Assembly: GCA_040901445.1 (NCBI GenBank)
Contig: JBBDYQ010000020.1
Coordinates: 46,956 to 110,955, forward strand
Source of the DNA: Thermoleophilaceae bacterium
GTDB taxonomy: Bacteria > Actinomycetota > Thermoleophilia > Solirubrobacterales > Thermoleophilaceae
DNA length: 64,000 bases
Reading direction: 5' to 3'
In this document: positions 11,814-45,599 of the stretch, piece after piece
Layout of the letters: the number at the start of each line of letters is the position of its first letter
Numbering within the stretch: the first letter of the stretch is position 1
The notes under the pieces: generated by a model
The model's database searches: none
Told to the model about the DNA's origin: nothing
Seen by the model: only the letters and a program-made list of their open reading frames with translations
Program-made: the position numbers and the translations under genes

Positions 11814-12619
11814 GCGGCCACCGCGAGCGTGCGCTTGACCAGCCCGTTGAGGACCTTGTCCGGCCCCAGCGTCACGAAGCGCTCCACCCCGCGGGCGCGC
11901 AGCGCGAGCAGCGTCTCGCGCCAGCGGACCGTTCGCAGCAGGTTGGCGGCGAGCTCGGCACGCACGTTCCCGAACGGCGAGGCGGTGCCGTTGGAGTAGA
12001 CCGGGAAGCGCGGCGGGCGAATCGTTATCTGGGCGAGCGCGCAGGCCAGCTCCTCCGCCGCGGGCACCATCAGCTCGGAGTGGAAGGCCCCGCTCACGTC
12101 GAGCTTCCGCGCCCGCAGCCGCCGCTCGCGGACCTCTGCCTCGGCGGCCTCGATCGCGTCCGCGGCACCGGAGAGCACGAGCTGCCCGGGTGCGTTGTCG
12201 TTGGCGATCGTCAGGCGATGCCGGCGCGTGAGCTCGTCGGCGTCCCCATTCCCGGCTCCGAGCAGCGCCAGCATCCCGCCGGGCGCGGCCTCACCGGCGC
12301 GGGCCATGGCATCGCCGCGCAGGGCCACGAGCCGCAAAGCGTCCTCGAAGTCGAGCGCCCCTGCGGCCGTGAGCGCGGTGTACTCGCCGAGCGAGTGGCC
12401 GGCCCCGGCCGCAGGCTCGTGGAGTCCCGGCTCGGCCTCGAGCGCCGCCAGCCCGCACAGGAACAGGGCGGGCTGCTGGAAGCGCGTGCCCTCATCGAGG
12501 CGGGCGAAGGGGTCGTAGCCCAGCAGCTCGATCCCGCGCGGGATGACCTCGCCGTCGCGCCACGGCTCGTCCATGCCGGCGGCGTGGCTGCCCTGGCCCG
12601 GGAACAGGAGCGCGGTCAT
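11810..12619 (-). CDS. fabD: Malonyl-CoA:ACP transacylase, first gene of the fab operon
   Basis: A 269-residue acyltransferase that loads malonyl onto ACP. Catalytic Ser76 in GHSLGEY and His180 in GAFHSELM are present, after the N-terminal LLFPGQGSHAAGM. It opens a seven-gene minus-strand operon; the upstream 70 bp contain a candidate operator. It is a little shorter than the usual ~310 residues, mainly in the small subdomain. Confidence 0.93.
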   Translation of the reverse strand: MTALLFPGQGSHAAGMDEPWRDGEVIPRGIELLGYDPFARLDEGTRFQQPALFLCGLAALEAEPGLHEPAAGAGHSLGEYTALTAAGALDFEDALRLVALRGDAMARAGEAAPGGMLALLGAGNGDADELTRRHRLTIANDNAPGQLVLSGAADAIEAAEAEVRERRLRARKLDVSGAFHSELMVPAAEELACALAQITIRPPRFPVYSNGTASPFGNVRAELAANLLRTVRWRETLLALRARGVERFVTLGPDKVLNGLVKRTLAVAA

Positions 12620-12686
12620 CAGGGGTCCGGACCCCGCCGCGTGACGGGGGTTACCGATGTTCGACGCGCCGGGCCGGAATGTCGAT

Positions 12687-12703
12687 TGACCGGGATTCGG
12701 TCA
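12687..12703. promoter_or_regulatory. Inverted repeat upstream of fabD, candidate operator
   Basis: TGACCG-GGATT-CGGTCA is a perfect 6-bp inverted repeat with 5-bp spacer, centred ~75 bp upstream of the fabD start codon. Size and position fit a TetR-type dimer site, and a TetR gene ends the same operon. No -10 or -35 could be placed with confidence, so this is a suggestion only. Confidence 0.4.
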
Positions 12704-12780
12704 GGCCACGATCCACCCCCGCATCATCGAACGTCCCGGACTACCCCCTATAGATGGTTGATTCCACCCGCTCTTGCGGG

Positions 12781-13120
12781 TAGGCCACGAGCGAGCGGCA
12801 CGGGCAAGTCCCCCGATCACGGCCCCAGCCGTGGAATCAACCACCTGGCGGCGGCCCCGCCGCGACCGTGCGGAGTTGACCACCGTATGGGTCGCAAAGT
12901 CCGCACGGCTCGGCCCGAACGCCGGAGGGCCCGGTCACCCGTCCCTAGAGACGAGTCATCCCGCGTCGGGTTAACCGGCGAGTGTGGCGAGGCGCCGCGG
13001 AGCGACCGAGGTGGTGGTGAGCCAGATTGCCGCGCGAGTCCACTCCCGCCTCTCTCACTGCAAACCTGGCGGCGCTGAGCCAAACCACCGCCCGGCGAAA
13101 GCACACGACCAACCGCGGAA
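12781..13120. repeat. Dispersed structured repeat R1, copy 1 (with a ~119-bp insert)
   Basis: Positions 12781-12918 match 38051-38188 at all but six of 138 positions, and 13037-13120 match 38188-38271 more loosely; copy 1 carries an extra ~119 bp (12919-13036). The conserved part folds on either strand into a closing helix (CGAGC 12788-12792 with GCTCG 12908-12912) and three hairpins: 12818-12833 (6-bp stem), 12848-12863 (6-bp stem) and 12866-12908 (9-bp stem plus an inner 4-bp helix). The sequence GCACGG at 12798-12803 could compete for the third hairpin. Both copies sit just 3' of a diguanylate cyclase gene. Nature unknown: structured RNA, or a small non-autonomous mobile element. Confidence 0.75.
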
Positions 13121-13183
13121 TCACTCATCTACACGGGCCAGTGCGGGACGTTCATGTTTGGCGCCGCCGAGGGGCTCGGGTCG

Positions 13184-14635
13184 CTAGGCACCGATCAGTG
13201 AGCGGTTCCGGCCGGTTCGCTTCGCCTGGTAGAGCGCCTCGTCGGCGCGGCCGAGCAGCGCCGACGCCGTGTCGCCGGCCTCCCGGCGCGCGACGCCCGC
13301 CGAGCAGGACTCCCCGCGAGGCGTCGCGGCTCGCAGGCGGTCCACGACTCTGCGCGCGACCTGGACGTCGTCTCCGTGCAGGAGCACGACGAACTCCTCG
13401 CCGCCGTACCGCGCCAGCGTGTCGGCCGGGCGCAGTTGCGCACGCCACGCGGCGGCCGCCTCCTTGAGCAGGCGGTCTCCGGCCTGGTGTCCGTGATCGT
13501 CGTTGTAGGACTTGAAGAAGTCGAGATCGAGGATCGCCACGCAAACCGGCTCGGCGTCGCGGGTCACCCGCTCCAGGTGCTCGTCCCATGCCCGGCGATT
13601 GGGCAGGCCGGTCAACACGTCGGTCAGGGCCACCTCGGTCAGCCGTCCGAGCAGGTCGGCGCGCTCGATCACGAACGCCGCCTCGGACGCGAGCAGGCGG
13701 ACGAGACCGGTCGTCCGGCGCACATCGGCCGGCGGCTGCCGCCAGCCGGCGACGAGGACTCCCACGACGTCCTCGCCGCGATGAACGGGCTCGAACAGGA
13801 CGGCCGCCGGTCTCTCCGCCGCCTCGAATGCCCAGGTGTCGTTGTCCGGATGCTCGTCGGGATCGGAGACGAAGCGCGCGGCGCCCGAGCAATAGGCCGC
13901 CATCGCCCAGGACGAGCCACCCTTCGGCGTGATGGTCAGCGACGAATGGCTCAGCCCGGCTCCGGCGGTCCAGGCGAGTGAGCCGTCGCCCTGCCCCTCG
14001 AGCAGCACGGCGAAGTTCGCCCCGCTGACGTCGCAGGCGGCGGCGCAGAGGCGCTCGCGGGCATCGGTGGTCCCGGAGAGCGAGCGCGACAGATCGGCCA
14101 TCGTCTCCAGGTCGCGTTCGCGAGCCGCCAGGGCTTCGGCGTGGCCGCGCACGCCGGCGACCAGGTTCTGCACCGCGATCCCGACGATCGCCGACGCGGC
14201 CGCGAACACGACGGCTATCCGCCAGATGCTGAGCGGGTACTCCGGCCCGCCGGTGAGCACGGCGGGGGCCACGAGGAAAGTGCAGACCCCGCCGATCAGC
14301 ACCAGAAGCTGGCCGCGGCTACCGTGCAGAGCCAGCCAGAAGACCGGCACCAGCGCGAGCGCTCCGACGCCCGCCACGGCGCCGCCGCTCGCATCCCGCA
14401 GCAGCGCGACCGAGATGAGGAACAGCAGCGAGGGGGCGATCCACGTCGCTCGGGGCAGATTGCGCCAGGGCGCGAAGACGGCCACGCAGGCGGTGGCGAG
14501 CATCAGCACCGCCGCAACCGTGTAGCCGGTCCAGTCGACGCCGTTCCCGATCGGCACGAGTGCGAATCCGAGCAGGGTCGCCGCGCCAAACGGCGCGATC
14601 TCGCGGGCGAGCCGGCGATCGAGCGTCATCACCAT
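13184..14635 (-). CDS. Membrane-bound GAF-GGDEF diguanylate cyclase
   Basis: A 483-residue enzyme making c-di-GMP from two GTP. About six hydrophobic helices fill residues ~15-165, a GAF-like sensor domain ~185-320, and a GGDEF domain the C-terminal 165 residues. The active-site motif is GGEEF at 411-415, and an RxxD inhibitory site (RPAD, from residue 402) lies the canonical five residues upstream, so both catalysis and product inhibition look intact. ATG 14635 or 14629 both serve as start. Downstream lies repeat R1, as for the second cyclase at 38.3 kb. Confidence 0.93.
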   Translation of the reverse strand: MVMTLDRRLAREIAPFGAATLLGFALVPIGNGVDWTGYTVAAVLMLATACVAVFAPWRNLPRATWIAPSLLFLISVALLRDASGGAVAGVGALALVPVFWLALHGSRGQLLVLIGGVCTFLVAPAVLTGGPEYPLSIWRIAVVFAAASAIVGIAVQNLVAGVRGHAEALAARERDLETMADLSRSLSGTTDARERLCAAACDVSGANFAVLLEGQGDGSLAWTAGAGLSHSSLTITPKGGSSWAMAAYCSGAARFVSDPDEHPDNDTWAFEAAERPAAVLFEPVHRGEDVVGVLVAGWRQPPADVRRTTGLVRLLASEAAFVIERADLLGRLTEVALTDVLTGLPNRRAWDEHLERVTRDAEPVCVAILDLDFFKSYNDDHGHQAGDRLLKEAAAAWRAQLRPADTLARYGGEEFVVLLHGDDVQVARRVVDRLRAATPRGESCSAGVARREAGDTASALLGRADEALYQAKRTGRNRSLIGA

Positions 14636-28448: not shown

Positions 28449-28507
28449 ATCCGCGGTTTCGCCGCGGCGGGGCGCGCTCCTGCTGCGTTTCGCGTCCCGG
28501 GGACCGC

Positions 28508-28558
28508 CGCGCCGTCCTGCCCTGGGCCGTCACACGCGGCCCAGGGCAGGACGGCGCG
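28508..28558. terminator. Perfect 22-bp hairpin downstream of the HxlR regulator
   Basis: Positions 28508-28529 are exactly complementary to 28537-28558 with a 7-nt loop. It begins 14 bp after the stop of the HxlR gene on the minus strand and ends 59 bp before the start of the unknown protein gene. There is no T-run. Length and perfection are unusual for a terminator. Confidence 0.65.
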
Positions 28559-28572
28559 GGCGAAAGAGGCGC

Positions 28573-33650: not shown

Positions 33651-33725
33651 CGCGGCTCCCGTGCCCGGGCACCCCGCGGGCGAAACGACAGAGGGCGGAC
33701 CCGAAGGCGAGCCCTCTGGCTCATG

Positions 33726-33826
33726 TAGGGCAGCGAGAGGCGAGCATGCCAAGGACGCAGGGAGCGACGCGTGCTACGCACGCGAGCGACCGAGGACGCA
33801 GGCAGGCGACGCCTATCGCTGCCCTA
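33726..33826 (-). repeat. Dispersed repeat R2, copy A, inside a long stem at the 3' end of rpoD
   Basis: The 49-bp core 33751-33799 matches 45529-45577 with four differences. It contains the hairpin GCGTGC-TAC-GCACGC; in copy B one base pair changes from C-G to T-A, keeping the stem. Around copy A, 33726-33742 pairs with 33810-33826 (17 bp, one mismatch), and the right arm includes the rpoD stop codon. A small AGAGGGC/GCCCTCT hairpin (33690-33717) lies beyond. It may act as a terminator or 3'-end stabiliser for the sigma factor mRNA, or be a REP-like mobile sequence. Confidence 0.7.
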
Positions 33827-34927
33827 CGCGACGTCGCGGAGCTTCTGGGCTTCCGCGAGCGACTGCAGCTTCTTGAGCGACTGGTTCTCGATCTGGCGGA
33901 TGCGCTCGCGCGTGACGTTGAACGTGCGGCCCACCTCGTCGAGGGTGCGGGGGTGCTCCCCGCCGAGCCCGTAGCGCAGCTCGAGCACGCGCCGCTCGCG
34001 GTAGCTCAAGTTCTCGAGCGCCTCGCGCAGCGCCTCCTTGGTGAGGATCTCCGCGGCGCGCTCGTACGGCGACTCGGCCCGCTCGTCGGCGATGAACTGG
34101 CCGAACTCGGACTCCTCCTCGTCACCCACCGGCTTCTCCAGCGAAACCGGTGCCTGGGCGGAGCGCTTGATCGAGTCGACCTCCTCGGGATCGATGCCCG
34201 TGTGGGCGGCGATCTCCTCGGGGGTGGGCTCACGCCCCAGCTCGGTGACGAGCTTGCGCTCGGCGCGGCCGATCTTATTGAGCTTCTCGACCACGTGCAC
34301 GGGGATGCGGATGGTGCGCGCCTTGTCGGCCAGCGCGCGGGCGATGGCCTGGCGGATCCACCAGGTGGCGTAGGTGGAGAACTTGAAGCCCTTGCGGTAG
34401 TCGAACTTCTCAGCCGCGCGGACCAGGCCCAGCGTGCCCTCCTGGATGAGGTCGAGGAAGGGCAGGCCCTGGTTGCGGTAGTTCTTGGCGATCGAGACGA
34501 CCAGCCGCAGGTTGGACTCCACCATCTTCTGCTTGGCGTCGAGGTCGCCGCGCTCGATGCGCTTGGCGAGATCGACCTCCTCCTGCGCCGTCAGCAGTCT
34601 GACCTTCCCGATGTCCTTGAGGAAGAGCTGCAGCGAATCCGTCGTCATGTCCGGCTTGAGGTCGATCTGGCTCTTGGCCTTGCGCCGGCGTCCCTTGCCG
34701 TCCACAGCGCGCTCTTCCTGATTGGCGGCGAGCGCCGGATCGATCTCCTCGACGAGCTCGATCTCGGACTTCTCGAGGAAGCCGTGCAGCTCCTCGATGT
34801 CCGACTCGTCGATGTCCACCTCGGCCAGCGCCGTCGCCACCTCCGCGTAGGTGAGCACGCCCGTTGCCGTGCCCTTGGTGACGAGGAGCTTGACCTCCTC
34901 GAGTTCCTGGAGTTCCGCTACTGACAT
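33824..34927 (-). CDS. rpoD: Primary-type sigma-70 factor (RpoD/SigA)
   Basis: A 367-residue sigma factor with a region 1.1-like N-terminus ([20 protein letters not shown]), region 1.2 [16 protein letters not shown], region 2 with [20 protein letters not shown] and [14 protein letters not shown] (the -10-binding part), region 3 and region 4 ending [17 protein letters not shown]. This is the full domain set of a housekeeping sigma, without the long acidic extension of actinomycete HrdB/SigA. ATG 34927 begins at region 1.1; ATG 34978 is an in-frame alternative. A good promoter lies at 34995-35023. Confidence 0.93.
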
Positions 34928-38015: not shown

Positions 38016-38046
38016 CCCGCCTCTAGGGCGCGCCGGCCGCGCGGGC
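38016..38046. repeat. 31-bp direct repeat flanking R1 copy 2 (left arm)
   Basis: These 31 bp equal 38276-38306 with one mismatch. The right arm is the 3' end of the diguanylate cyclase gene including its stop codon; the left arm is a detached duplicate 260 bp away. The two arms exactly enclose R1 copy 2, as expected of an insertion that duplicated its target or of a segmental duplication. Confidence 0.7.
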
Positions 38047-38050
38047 CGCG

Positions 38051-38272
38051 TAGGCCACGAGCGAGCGGCACGGGCAAATCCCCCGATCATGGCCCCAGCC
38101 GTGGAATCAACCGCCCAGCGGCGGCCCCGCCGGGACCGTGCGGAGTTGACCACCGTATGGGTCGCAAAGTCCGCACGGCTCGGCCCGAGTCCACTTCCCC
38201 CCTCCCTCACTGCCAACCTGGCCGCGCTTCGCCAAACCACGCCGCGGGGAAAGGACACGACCAACCGCGGAA
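38051..38272. repeat. Dispersed structured repeat R1, copy 2
   Basis: Near-identical to copy 1 over 38051-38188 and again, less closely, to 38272, but without copy 1's ~119-bp insert. Two of the three hairpins and the closing helix are unchanged; the first hairpin has C-G replaced by a T-G wobble (CATGGC/GCCGTG), which keeps the stem. It fills the 291-bp gap between the response regulator and the second diguanylate cyclase, enclosed by 31-bp direct repeats. No gene is seen inside. Confidence 0.75.
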
Positions 38273-38282
38273 CAACCCGCCT

Positions 38283-39266
38283 CTAGGGCGCGTCGGCCGC
38301 GCGGGCGGCAGCTCCGGGCTCGGCCACCGCCACGCTGCGGCCAGCGGCCTTCGCGCGGTACATCGCCTCGTCGCCGGTCTCGAGCAGGTGCTCGGCGTCG
38401 ACGGCGTGCTGGGGACAGGACGCGACCCCGATGGAGATGCCCACGCCGGAGTCGCCGGCGTCGATGGACTCGGCGATGCGGTCCGCGATCACGCGCGCGC
38501 GGGAGGCGGTCTGCTGCGGGGCCACCACGCAGAACTCGTCGCCGCCGATGCGCACCGGCGTGTCCACCCGGCGGATGGCCGCGCGGATGGCCTCCGCCAC
38601 CGCCACGAGCGCGCGGTCCCCCGCGGCGTGGCCGCGGGAGTCGTTGAGTCGCTTGAGGCCGTCCATGTCGAGCAGCAGGACCGAGAACGGGTGGCCGTAG
38701 CGGCGGTGGTGGTCGAGCAGCTGCTGGAGGTGCTCCTGCAGGAAGCGGACGTTGTAGAGGCCTGTGAGGGGGTCCGTGTGGGCGAGTCGCTCGAGCTCGC
38801 GCTCGCGCTTGCCGAGCAGCTGTTCGATGGCCGCGGCCTGGATGCCGCCGAAGGCCGTCGCCAGGCGGTCCACCGCATCGACGAAGACATGCGGGTCACG
38901 GTCGTCGAGCTCGCGCCGGAGGGCGGCCACGATGACCGACTGGAGCGCGGTGAGGTCGCGCGCGAGGTCCGAGGCGGATGCGCCCTGGCCGCCGCGCAGC
39001 TCCCCGAGGCGGGCGGCGCGATCGCGGCCGTCCGCGTCGAGCTCCATGGGGCCGTCCTTCACGCCGAGCGCCCGGAGGATGTCCGAGATCAGCGGCGGCA
39101 GCTCACGCGCGATCCGATCGGTGGGCAACCGCTCGATCTCGTCGAGCGAGGCCCGCTCCAACAGCCGGAGCAGCCATGCCTTGGCCAGCTCCTCCCGACC
39201 TTCGTGGAGGCGGGCAAGGGGCTCGTCGAGCGCGGCTGGCAGGCGGCGGACGTCTGGGTCGGGCAC
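38283..39266 (-). CDS. Soluble diguanylate cyclase (helical sensor domain plus GGDEF)
   Basis: A ~327-residue enzyme. Residues ~1-135 are an all-helical sensor-like domain (ELAKAWLLRLLERASLDEIE, typical of RsbR-type N-domains); the GGDEF domain follows with active site GGDEF at 241-245 and RxxD inhibitory site RRVD five residues before it, so it should make c-di-GMP and be product-inhibited. GTG 39266 is the first start after a TAGGGT -10 (39303-39298); in-frame GTGs at 39299 and 39347 are alternatives. Its 3' end is duplicated as the 31-bp repeat arm beyond R1 copy 2. Confidence 0.9.
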   Translation of the reverse strand: MPDPDVRRLPAALDEPLARLHEGREELAKAWLLRLLERASLDEIERLPTDRIARELPPLISDILRALGVKDGPMELDADGRDRAARLGELRGGQGASASDLARDLTALQSVIVAALRRELDDRDPHVFVDAVDRLATAFGGIQAAAIEQLLGKRERELERLAHTDPLTGLYNVRFLQEHLQQLLDHHRRYGHPFSVLLLDMDGLKRLNDSRGHAAGDRALVAVAEAIRAAIRRVDTPVRIGGDEFCVVAPQQTASRARVIADRIAESIDAGDSGVGISIGVASCPQHAVDAEHLLETGDEAMYRAKAAGRSVAVAEPGAAARAADAP

Positions 39267-39370
39267 GGCGGCTGTGAGAGGCCGGGGGCGGTGGTCCACC
39301 CTAGCCACGCACCCGGAGGGATCGACGGCTCCGCCGGAGGAAAGCACGCAACGAGCGCGAAACCGCTGTC

Positions 39371-45445: not shown

Positions 45446-45528
45446 GCGGCCAATGTGCGCGCCGGACGCTACTACCGCAAGTCGGACATGCGTCCAGAGC
45501 GTCCCGAGATGCTCAGGCCAAGCTATGC

Positions 45529-45577
45529 AAGGACGCAGGGAGCGACGTGTGCTCCGCACACAAGCGACCGAGGACGC
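45529..45577 (-). repeat. Dispersed repeat R2, copy B, at the 3' end of glpX
   Basis: Matches 33751-33799 in 45 of 49 positions. Its hairpin GTGTGC-TCC-GCACAC differs from copy A by a paired C-G to T-A change plus a loop change. It begins 23 bp after the glpX stop (minus strand) and ~85 bp before the TasA-like gene start. CGTCCAG near 45491 and CTGGACG near 45592 can close a larger stem around it. Confidence 0.65.
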
Positions 45578-45599
45578 CGCAGAGCGCCGGCCTGGACGT

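Follow-up and report, generated by a model that had tools for sequence, protein, structure and literature searches.

R1, the repeat found at two places in the window (the whole 64,000-nt stretch of Thermoleophilaceae DNA analysed here), is probably a composite of two intergenic palindromic DNA elements, likely passive mobile DNA moved by a transposase acting in trans. One part is a ~45-bp palindrome with the apex TTGACCACC and genus-specific paired stems, which is dispersed and lies preferentially between convergent genes. A weak model match relates the left part of copy 1 to a second palindromic element of ~167 bp with TA at its ends, and R1 copy 1 appears to be a decayed relative of this 167-bp element beside the short palindrome, while copy 2 appears to share the composite. 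A preliminary description of this DNA had left the choice between a structured RNA linked to c-di-GMP genes and a small mobile element that favours this site. That interpretation is supported in part: the mobile-element option is largely right, with gene 3′ ends rather than GGDEF genes as the site, whereas the RNA option is not, and the c-di-GMP RNA hypothesis gives way to concrete repeat biology.

The repeat pair, initially delimited as ~96% identical over 138 bp (12781-12918 and 38051-38188), is borne out and extends to 142 nt at 95% identity (Table 1). Its surroundings had been called otherwise unrelated, which they are not wholly, since a second block is also shared by the two sides; the block on the copy 1 side recurs at three more places in the window's own genome (L002, L005/L018 and L025). 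Around copy 1, TA at 12751-12752 and 13130-13131 bounds the 377-nt segment lying inside the inverted arms. Copy 2 has no TA-ended outer arms and is placed between 34-nt direct repeats, the right-hand one of which includes the TAG, part of a CTAG, that ends the GGDEF gene; this arrangement is unlike a simple TA insertion. What had been observed about the two copies is confirmed as to the repeat and its GGDEF neighbours, and not as to a four-way junction. The minimum-energy folds of copies 1 and 2 differ on either strand, with the palindrome as the common strong helix (z-scores for copy 1 and copy 2 of -2.51 and -2.05 on the + strand and of -1.25 and -1.65 on the - strand), and a four-way-junction RNA was rejected because, apart from the palindrome, copies 1 and 2 do not share a fold. 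The stem change from C-G to T-G, once read as preserving pairing, is a single C-to-T difference between two copies and no evidence of covariation.

Table 1 Features of the two R1 copies and their surroundings, in window coordinates
Feature	Position	Strand	Remarks
R1 copy 1, 142 nt	12777..12918	.	95% identity to 38047-38188
R1 copy 2, 142 nt	38047..38188	.	95% identity to 12777-12918
Palindromic core, copy 1, 43 nt	12866..12908	.	19-nt arms, 79% complementary; 5-nt loop GTATG; apex TTGACCACC
Palindromic core, copy 2, 43 nt	38136..38178	.	Inverted repeat
97-nt probable relative of the ~167-bp element, internally deleted	12751..12847	.	Weak match to model R2 (26.9 bits; E 6.7e-4 over 464 kb)
Left arm, 37-nt imperfect inverted repeat enclosing copy 1	12729..12765	.	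81%
Right arm, 37-nt imperfect inverted repeat enclosing copy 1	13117..13153	.	81%
377-nt segment inside the 37-nt arms around copy 1	12753..13129	.	Inverted ends GATGGTTGATTCC ... GGAATCACTCATC
Second shared block, copy 1 side	13044..13120	.	86% to 38196-38272
Second shared block, copy 2 side	38196..38272	.	86% to 13044-13120
34-nt direct repeat left of copy 2	38016..38049	.	94% to 38276-38309
34-nt direct repeat right of copy 2	38276..38309	.	94% to 38016-38049
GAF-GGDEF diguanylate cyclase gene	13184..14635	-	3′ end towards copy 1
GGDEF diguanylate cyclase gene	38283..39347	-	3′ end towards copy 2

The best-paired part common to both R1 copies is a 43-nt imperfect palindrome, on which model R1 matches copy 1 at 12860-12915 (68.5 bits) and copy 2 at 38130-38185 (69.2 bits). 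A DNA search of the own genome gave 13 matched places, of differing extents and with two of them within copy 2, most of which have the core CGTGCGGAGTTGACCACC-GTATG-GGTNNNNAAGTCCGCACGG in common. In other genera the apex is kept and the outer stem is different in sequence, still paired. The 88 hairpins measured have a median length of 47 nt and a median stem of 21 pairs (quartiles 18-23, mismatches counted), and 70 of them have a 5-nt loop. The search pattern constrained the inner arm and left the outer stem free. From 25 sequences, 24 were aligned (the near-duplicate L004 was left out, and L032 from genome G148, which looked coding by eye and folds without the outer stem, had been dropped beforehand), and 85.8% of the 408 cells pair. 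Cells changed on both sides number 58, compared with 21.2 ± 3.3 in shuffled alignments, none of 500 of which reach this value, and the covariation of 0.373 (0.118 in shuffles) is lost when the partner is slid. Of the 192 cells in the outer eight pairs, 56 differ on both sides and 2 have a change confined to one side. The number of pairs having any double change, nine, is not unusual (125/500 shuffles).

Model R1 identifies at least 13 distinct sites in the own genome, not counting a weaker candidate (L137, 26.5 bits), and matches 26 of the 232 genomes of the order in 17 of 54 genera (E ≤ 0.001); as the model searches covered between 12 and 24 candidates in each genome, copy numbers are lower bounds. 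Wider samples gave matches in 14 of 299 genomes of the class, one of them outside the order, and in 5 of 396 genomes of the phylum, two of them beyond the order, with G576 borderline. The centre pattern, with up to two mismatches, occurs in 10 of the 232 order genomes (the later dropped G148 among them) and its reversal in none. The bare apex 15-mer turns up in 7 of the 396 genomes of the phylum, its reversal in 2. Three of these seven (G000, G037 and G600) carry members of the palindrome family; in the other four (G554, G610, G415 and G520) the places fold without a paired outer stem. The apex pattern was also seen in four stretches of viral contigs (42-44% GC), which fold without a long outer stem, a pattern search of genome contigs returned one record, a Thermoleophilaceae MAG, and a comparison of 12740-13160 with plasmids gave no match. 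The preliminary description would have settled on an ordinary dispersed repeat in the case of many copies with no GGDEF association and no covariation: copies without GGDEF are indeed many, and covariation is present but looks DNA-level.

Two genomes illustrate how the palindrome varies. G226 has 24 model R1 matches, both strands counted, and its congeners G012 and G021 have none. At three loci of G226 (L041, L095 and L097) the short palindrome sits inside a ~340-bp repeat with the ends GGGCGACGAAG ... CTTCGTCGCCC, which is present at several places in that genome and without a match in the same congeners. In G600, from the same phylum and another class, 12 matches fall at 11 places and have their own stem sequence; its palindrome series GCTGTGAGCACTTGACCACC ... 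(L150, L152, L158-L166) has variable loops, with several members squeezed between convergent stop codons.

Placement relative to genes was scored for 88 copies, with G212 (14 matches, resembling those of G213) and some other matches left out, using genes predicted by a home-made codon-usage program that had been trained on the window. None lies inside a gene, some overlap a gene end, and 47 are found between convergent, 31 between codirectional and 5 between divergent genes, the other 5 being unplaced at contig edges. The intergenic bases in 464 kb of the own genome lead one to expect 20, 37 and 26 of the 83 placed copies in these settings, a background that comes from one genome alone and partly from stretches chosen near copies, whereas the copies come from many genomes.

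If the stems acted in sense RNA, G.U should outnumber A.C on the transcribed strand, so that this comparison tells a DNA palindrome from an RNA. Pair counts, for which 99 hairpins were entered and those with fewer than 10 paired positions skipped, gave 51 G.T and 55 A.C over all stems, and 22 G.U versus 19 A.C on the transcribed strand of codirectional copies. The asymmetric motif is oriented with the genes in 18 cases and against them in 18. Small as these numbers are, they favour a DNA-level palindrome over RNA for the short palindrome stems, and R1 presents a case in which compensatory pairs, usually taken for RNA function, appear to stem from DNA-level palindromes. Rfam searches of the whole window at gathering scores found nothing over the repeats and only a c-di-AMP riboswitch (RF00379, 36455-36617, + strand, 44 bits); there was no match in 12600-13300 at E ≤ 1, and at E ≤ 0.5 the locus spanning copy 2 (L028), together with six more loci, gave only part of the same riboswitch.

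The second element is recognised by its ends. An end pattern taken from the 377-nt segment occurs with at most one mismatch in 22 of 31 family genomes, against one match for the reversed control, and 10 of the 35 distinct end pairs in the loci examined are exactly 163 nt long (167 with the TAs). The 163-nt copies inspected fold end to end; among the 35 pairs, which lie up to 2 kb apart, the longest (839 and 853 nt) each begin with a complete 163-nt copy. In a consensus of 11 sequences the ends pair and 23 of 46 pairs have a double change. Model R2, of this element, matches 121 of the 232 order genomes and 43 of the 54 genera. At the 53 sites examined for element ends, mostly best matches, the length is 165-170 nt in 52 and 203 nt in one, and TA is present at 44 left and 44 right ends, with CTAG at 37 and 36. 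The 167-bp element shares with TA-target MITEs its inverted termini and the TA at either end. Its context is codirectional at 26 sites, convergent at 15 and divergent at 7, with 5 at edges. On the model strand A.C pairs number 72 and G.T pairs 20, and this strand is the transcribed one in 20 of the 26 codirectional copies; in these related sequences the A.C excess does not favour sense RNA. Within the 97-nt match on copy 1 lies an inverted repeat (12752-12767 / 12831-12846). A 167-nt copy (L242) compared with phages gave no match.

Facing genes stop exactly on the first three bases of the 167-bp element in 29 of 58 cases, on both sides at three sites, although an insertion inside a gene would bring an in-frame TAG in one of three frames and some of these coincidences are perhaps not native. 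In G012 the element sits at a TAG stop that the same gene also uses in G226 and G021; its right end is without TA, and G226 has the short palindrome at that stop. The one gene pair compared for the short palindrome gave no clean contrast of empty and filled sites: G012 holds the 167-bp element there, and the G021 genes are on different contigs. The word CTAG occurs 16 times in the window where 155 are expected, with 11 counts at stop-codon edges, a tally that may score one word for two genes. Ten copies of the element read from G080 (L291-L300), there a 166-bp palindrome, represent three distinct sequences, and at eight of them a gene stops on the outermost three bases of the element, at one copy from either side.

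Mobilisation probably takes place as follows. A transposase acting in trans would move both elements. The 167-bp element would insert at TA, mostly within CTAG, and because CTAG is rare in this GC-rich window and found mainly at stop codons, insertion would keep the stop codon and land at gene ends. The short palindrome would be copied as a DNA hairpin and kept where it is harmless, at 3′ ends, where it may in addition terminate or shield convergent transcripts. Y1 transposase (PF01797), the only family tested, is present in none of the 31 family genomes and in 5 of 14 control genomes, on which ground Y1/RAYT mobilisation within the family was rejected; no transposase tied to either element was identified. 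A more ambitious reading, which we offer as a speculation that may well fail, is an order-wide class seated at stop codons, comprising a 167-bp CTAG inserter that rebuilds the TAG of one or both neighbours and short satellite palindromes whose stems are rewritten per genus yet stay paired, the whole kept at the DNA level and serving as two-way gene-end markers. Should the CTAG/stop-codon rule prove right, the choice of target would by itself account for small repeats collecting at gene ends in such GC-rich bacteria.

The short palindrome could instead be chiefly a functional bidirectional terminator or mRNA 3′-end hairpin whose copies are kept by selection, an account that we regard as possible although the odds are against it. 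It draws on the position of 47 of the 83 placed copies between convergent genes, on a facing stop codon no more than 40 nt away in 39 of 88, and on the richness of convergent gaps in strong hairpins generally (below -40 kcal/mol in 28% of 25 gaps of the own genome versus 1% of 188 coding controls). Against it, a T-rich tract lies beside the hairpin in only 2 of 88 copies, for which reason a canonical intrinsic terminator was rejected; the transcribed strand has no G.U preference; and the near-identity within genomes, along with the absence from congeners, points to copying. The short palindrome is more strongly biased towards convergent gaps than the 167-bp element, of which 15 of 48 placed copies are convergent, so some retained function is possible. 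Palindromy might also be kept by the copying process itself, through template switching or repair in the hairpin, as a mutation bias involving neither function nor transposition. The near-absence of single-sided changes in the outer eight pairs and the strand symmetry would both fit, but the dispersal of near-identical copies and their excess at convergent ends would be left unexplained, and we consider this unlikely.

A structured RNA, riboswitch-like or a small RNA, connected with c-di-GMP signalling is the least credible of the alternatives and can be set aside almost entirely. It has in its favour the compensatory pairs and the place of the two window copies, each of which does lie 3′ of a GGDEF gene with an intact RxxD site, as first described, five residues ahead of GG[DE]EF (RPAD-TLARY-GGEEF and RRVD-TPVRI-GGDEF). 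The own genome has 17 GGDEF matches, two of which adjoin a copy, and the Poisson chance of two GGDEF neighbours in its 26 neighbour slots is ~0.008, a value weakened by the shared descent of the two copies and by their having been picked for this adjacency. The expectation that other copies would flank such genes fails, in that GG[DE]EF occurs in 2 of 171 neighbour genes of the 88 copies, both in the window, and in none of those beside the other 86. Pfam scans of 20 of the 22 neighbours of the other 11 own-genome copies found no GGDEF and no EAL; crotonase, FliD/FliS, IPPT, NDK, penicillin amidase and glycosyltransferase were among them. The absence of Rfam matches over the repeats, the strand symmetry of stems and orientation, the different folds of the two copies outside the palindrome and their position 3′ rather than 5′ of genes all count against such an RNA, and with 2 of 17 GGDEF matches beside copies, these two both in the window, the c-di-GMP linkage was rejected. 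That the window copies are a mere segmental duplication of one locus is nearly as improbable: they share 142 + 77 nt, more than with most other own-genome copies, but the core occurs at 11 further own-genome sites and in 25 genomes besides. This refutes a duplication as the whole story, though it may explain the same composite in both copies.

For the composite of two mobile palindromes that we prefer, the closest known kinds are REPs for the R1 palindrome and TA-target repeats such as RUP for the 167-bp element; papers on such repeats in Solirubrobacterales were absent among the open-literature matches listed. REP/BIME sequences of the GTAG and CGTC super-families are short dispersed extragenic palindromes that lie for the most part between convergent or unidirectional genes; their stems are 6-13 bp long and, in GTAG REPs, often contain G.T pairs (PMC3733652). 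The short palindrome is likewise extragenic and on the 3′ side of genes. It differs from REPs (20-40 bp) in its greater length and longer stems, in having no consistent GTAG/CGTC tag, and from GTAG REPs in the absence of Y1 transposase from the 31 family genomes and of a G.T excess. One of these tags, or a complement, is found no more than 10 nt from an end of 29 of the 88 copies, a slight excess over shuffled flanks (20.4 ± 4.2).

ERIC and Correia elements have TA ends. RUP, ERIC and Correia/NEMIS are non-coding, mostly intergenic elements of ~100-200 bp with inverted ends (PMC2229807, PMC10969869), and RUP inserts at TA-containing targets, which is ascribed to IS630-Spn1 (PMC2229807). Sequences aside, the 167-bp element is similar in its inverted ends and TA and works like RUP; it differs in its host order, in a near-constant 165-170 bp across many genera, in an end that often doubles as a stop codon and in that no autonomous partner was found. 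The Yersinia palindromic sequence RU-2 is ~168 bp long, palindromic and intergenic, with no TA at its ends (PMC2229807), and the 167-bp element is like it in length, palindromy and intergenic place and unlike it in the TA ends, sequences again aside. In DNA uptake signals of Neisseria and Pasteurellaceae the repeated sequence forms 3′-end hairpins that are terminators (PMC1852404). The short palindrome has 13 own-genome sites, not about a thousand, and the T tract in 2 of 88, and an uptake signal was rejected because of too few copies.

Two further observations concern the window itself. The strongest local hairpin of the intergenic gaps scanned lies in 28449-28572 (-60.9 kcal/mol in 56 nt), with no model R1 match. 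The central part of R2 also matches 33724-33828 (30.8 bits) and 45514-45594 (30.9 bits), both of which carry AAGGACGCAG ... GAGGACGC, a repeat shared within the window (D6).
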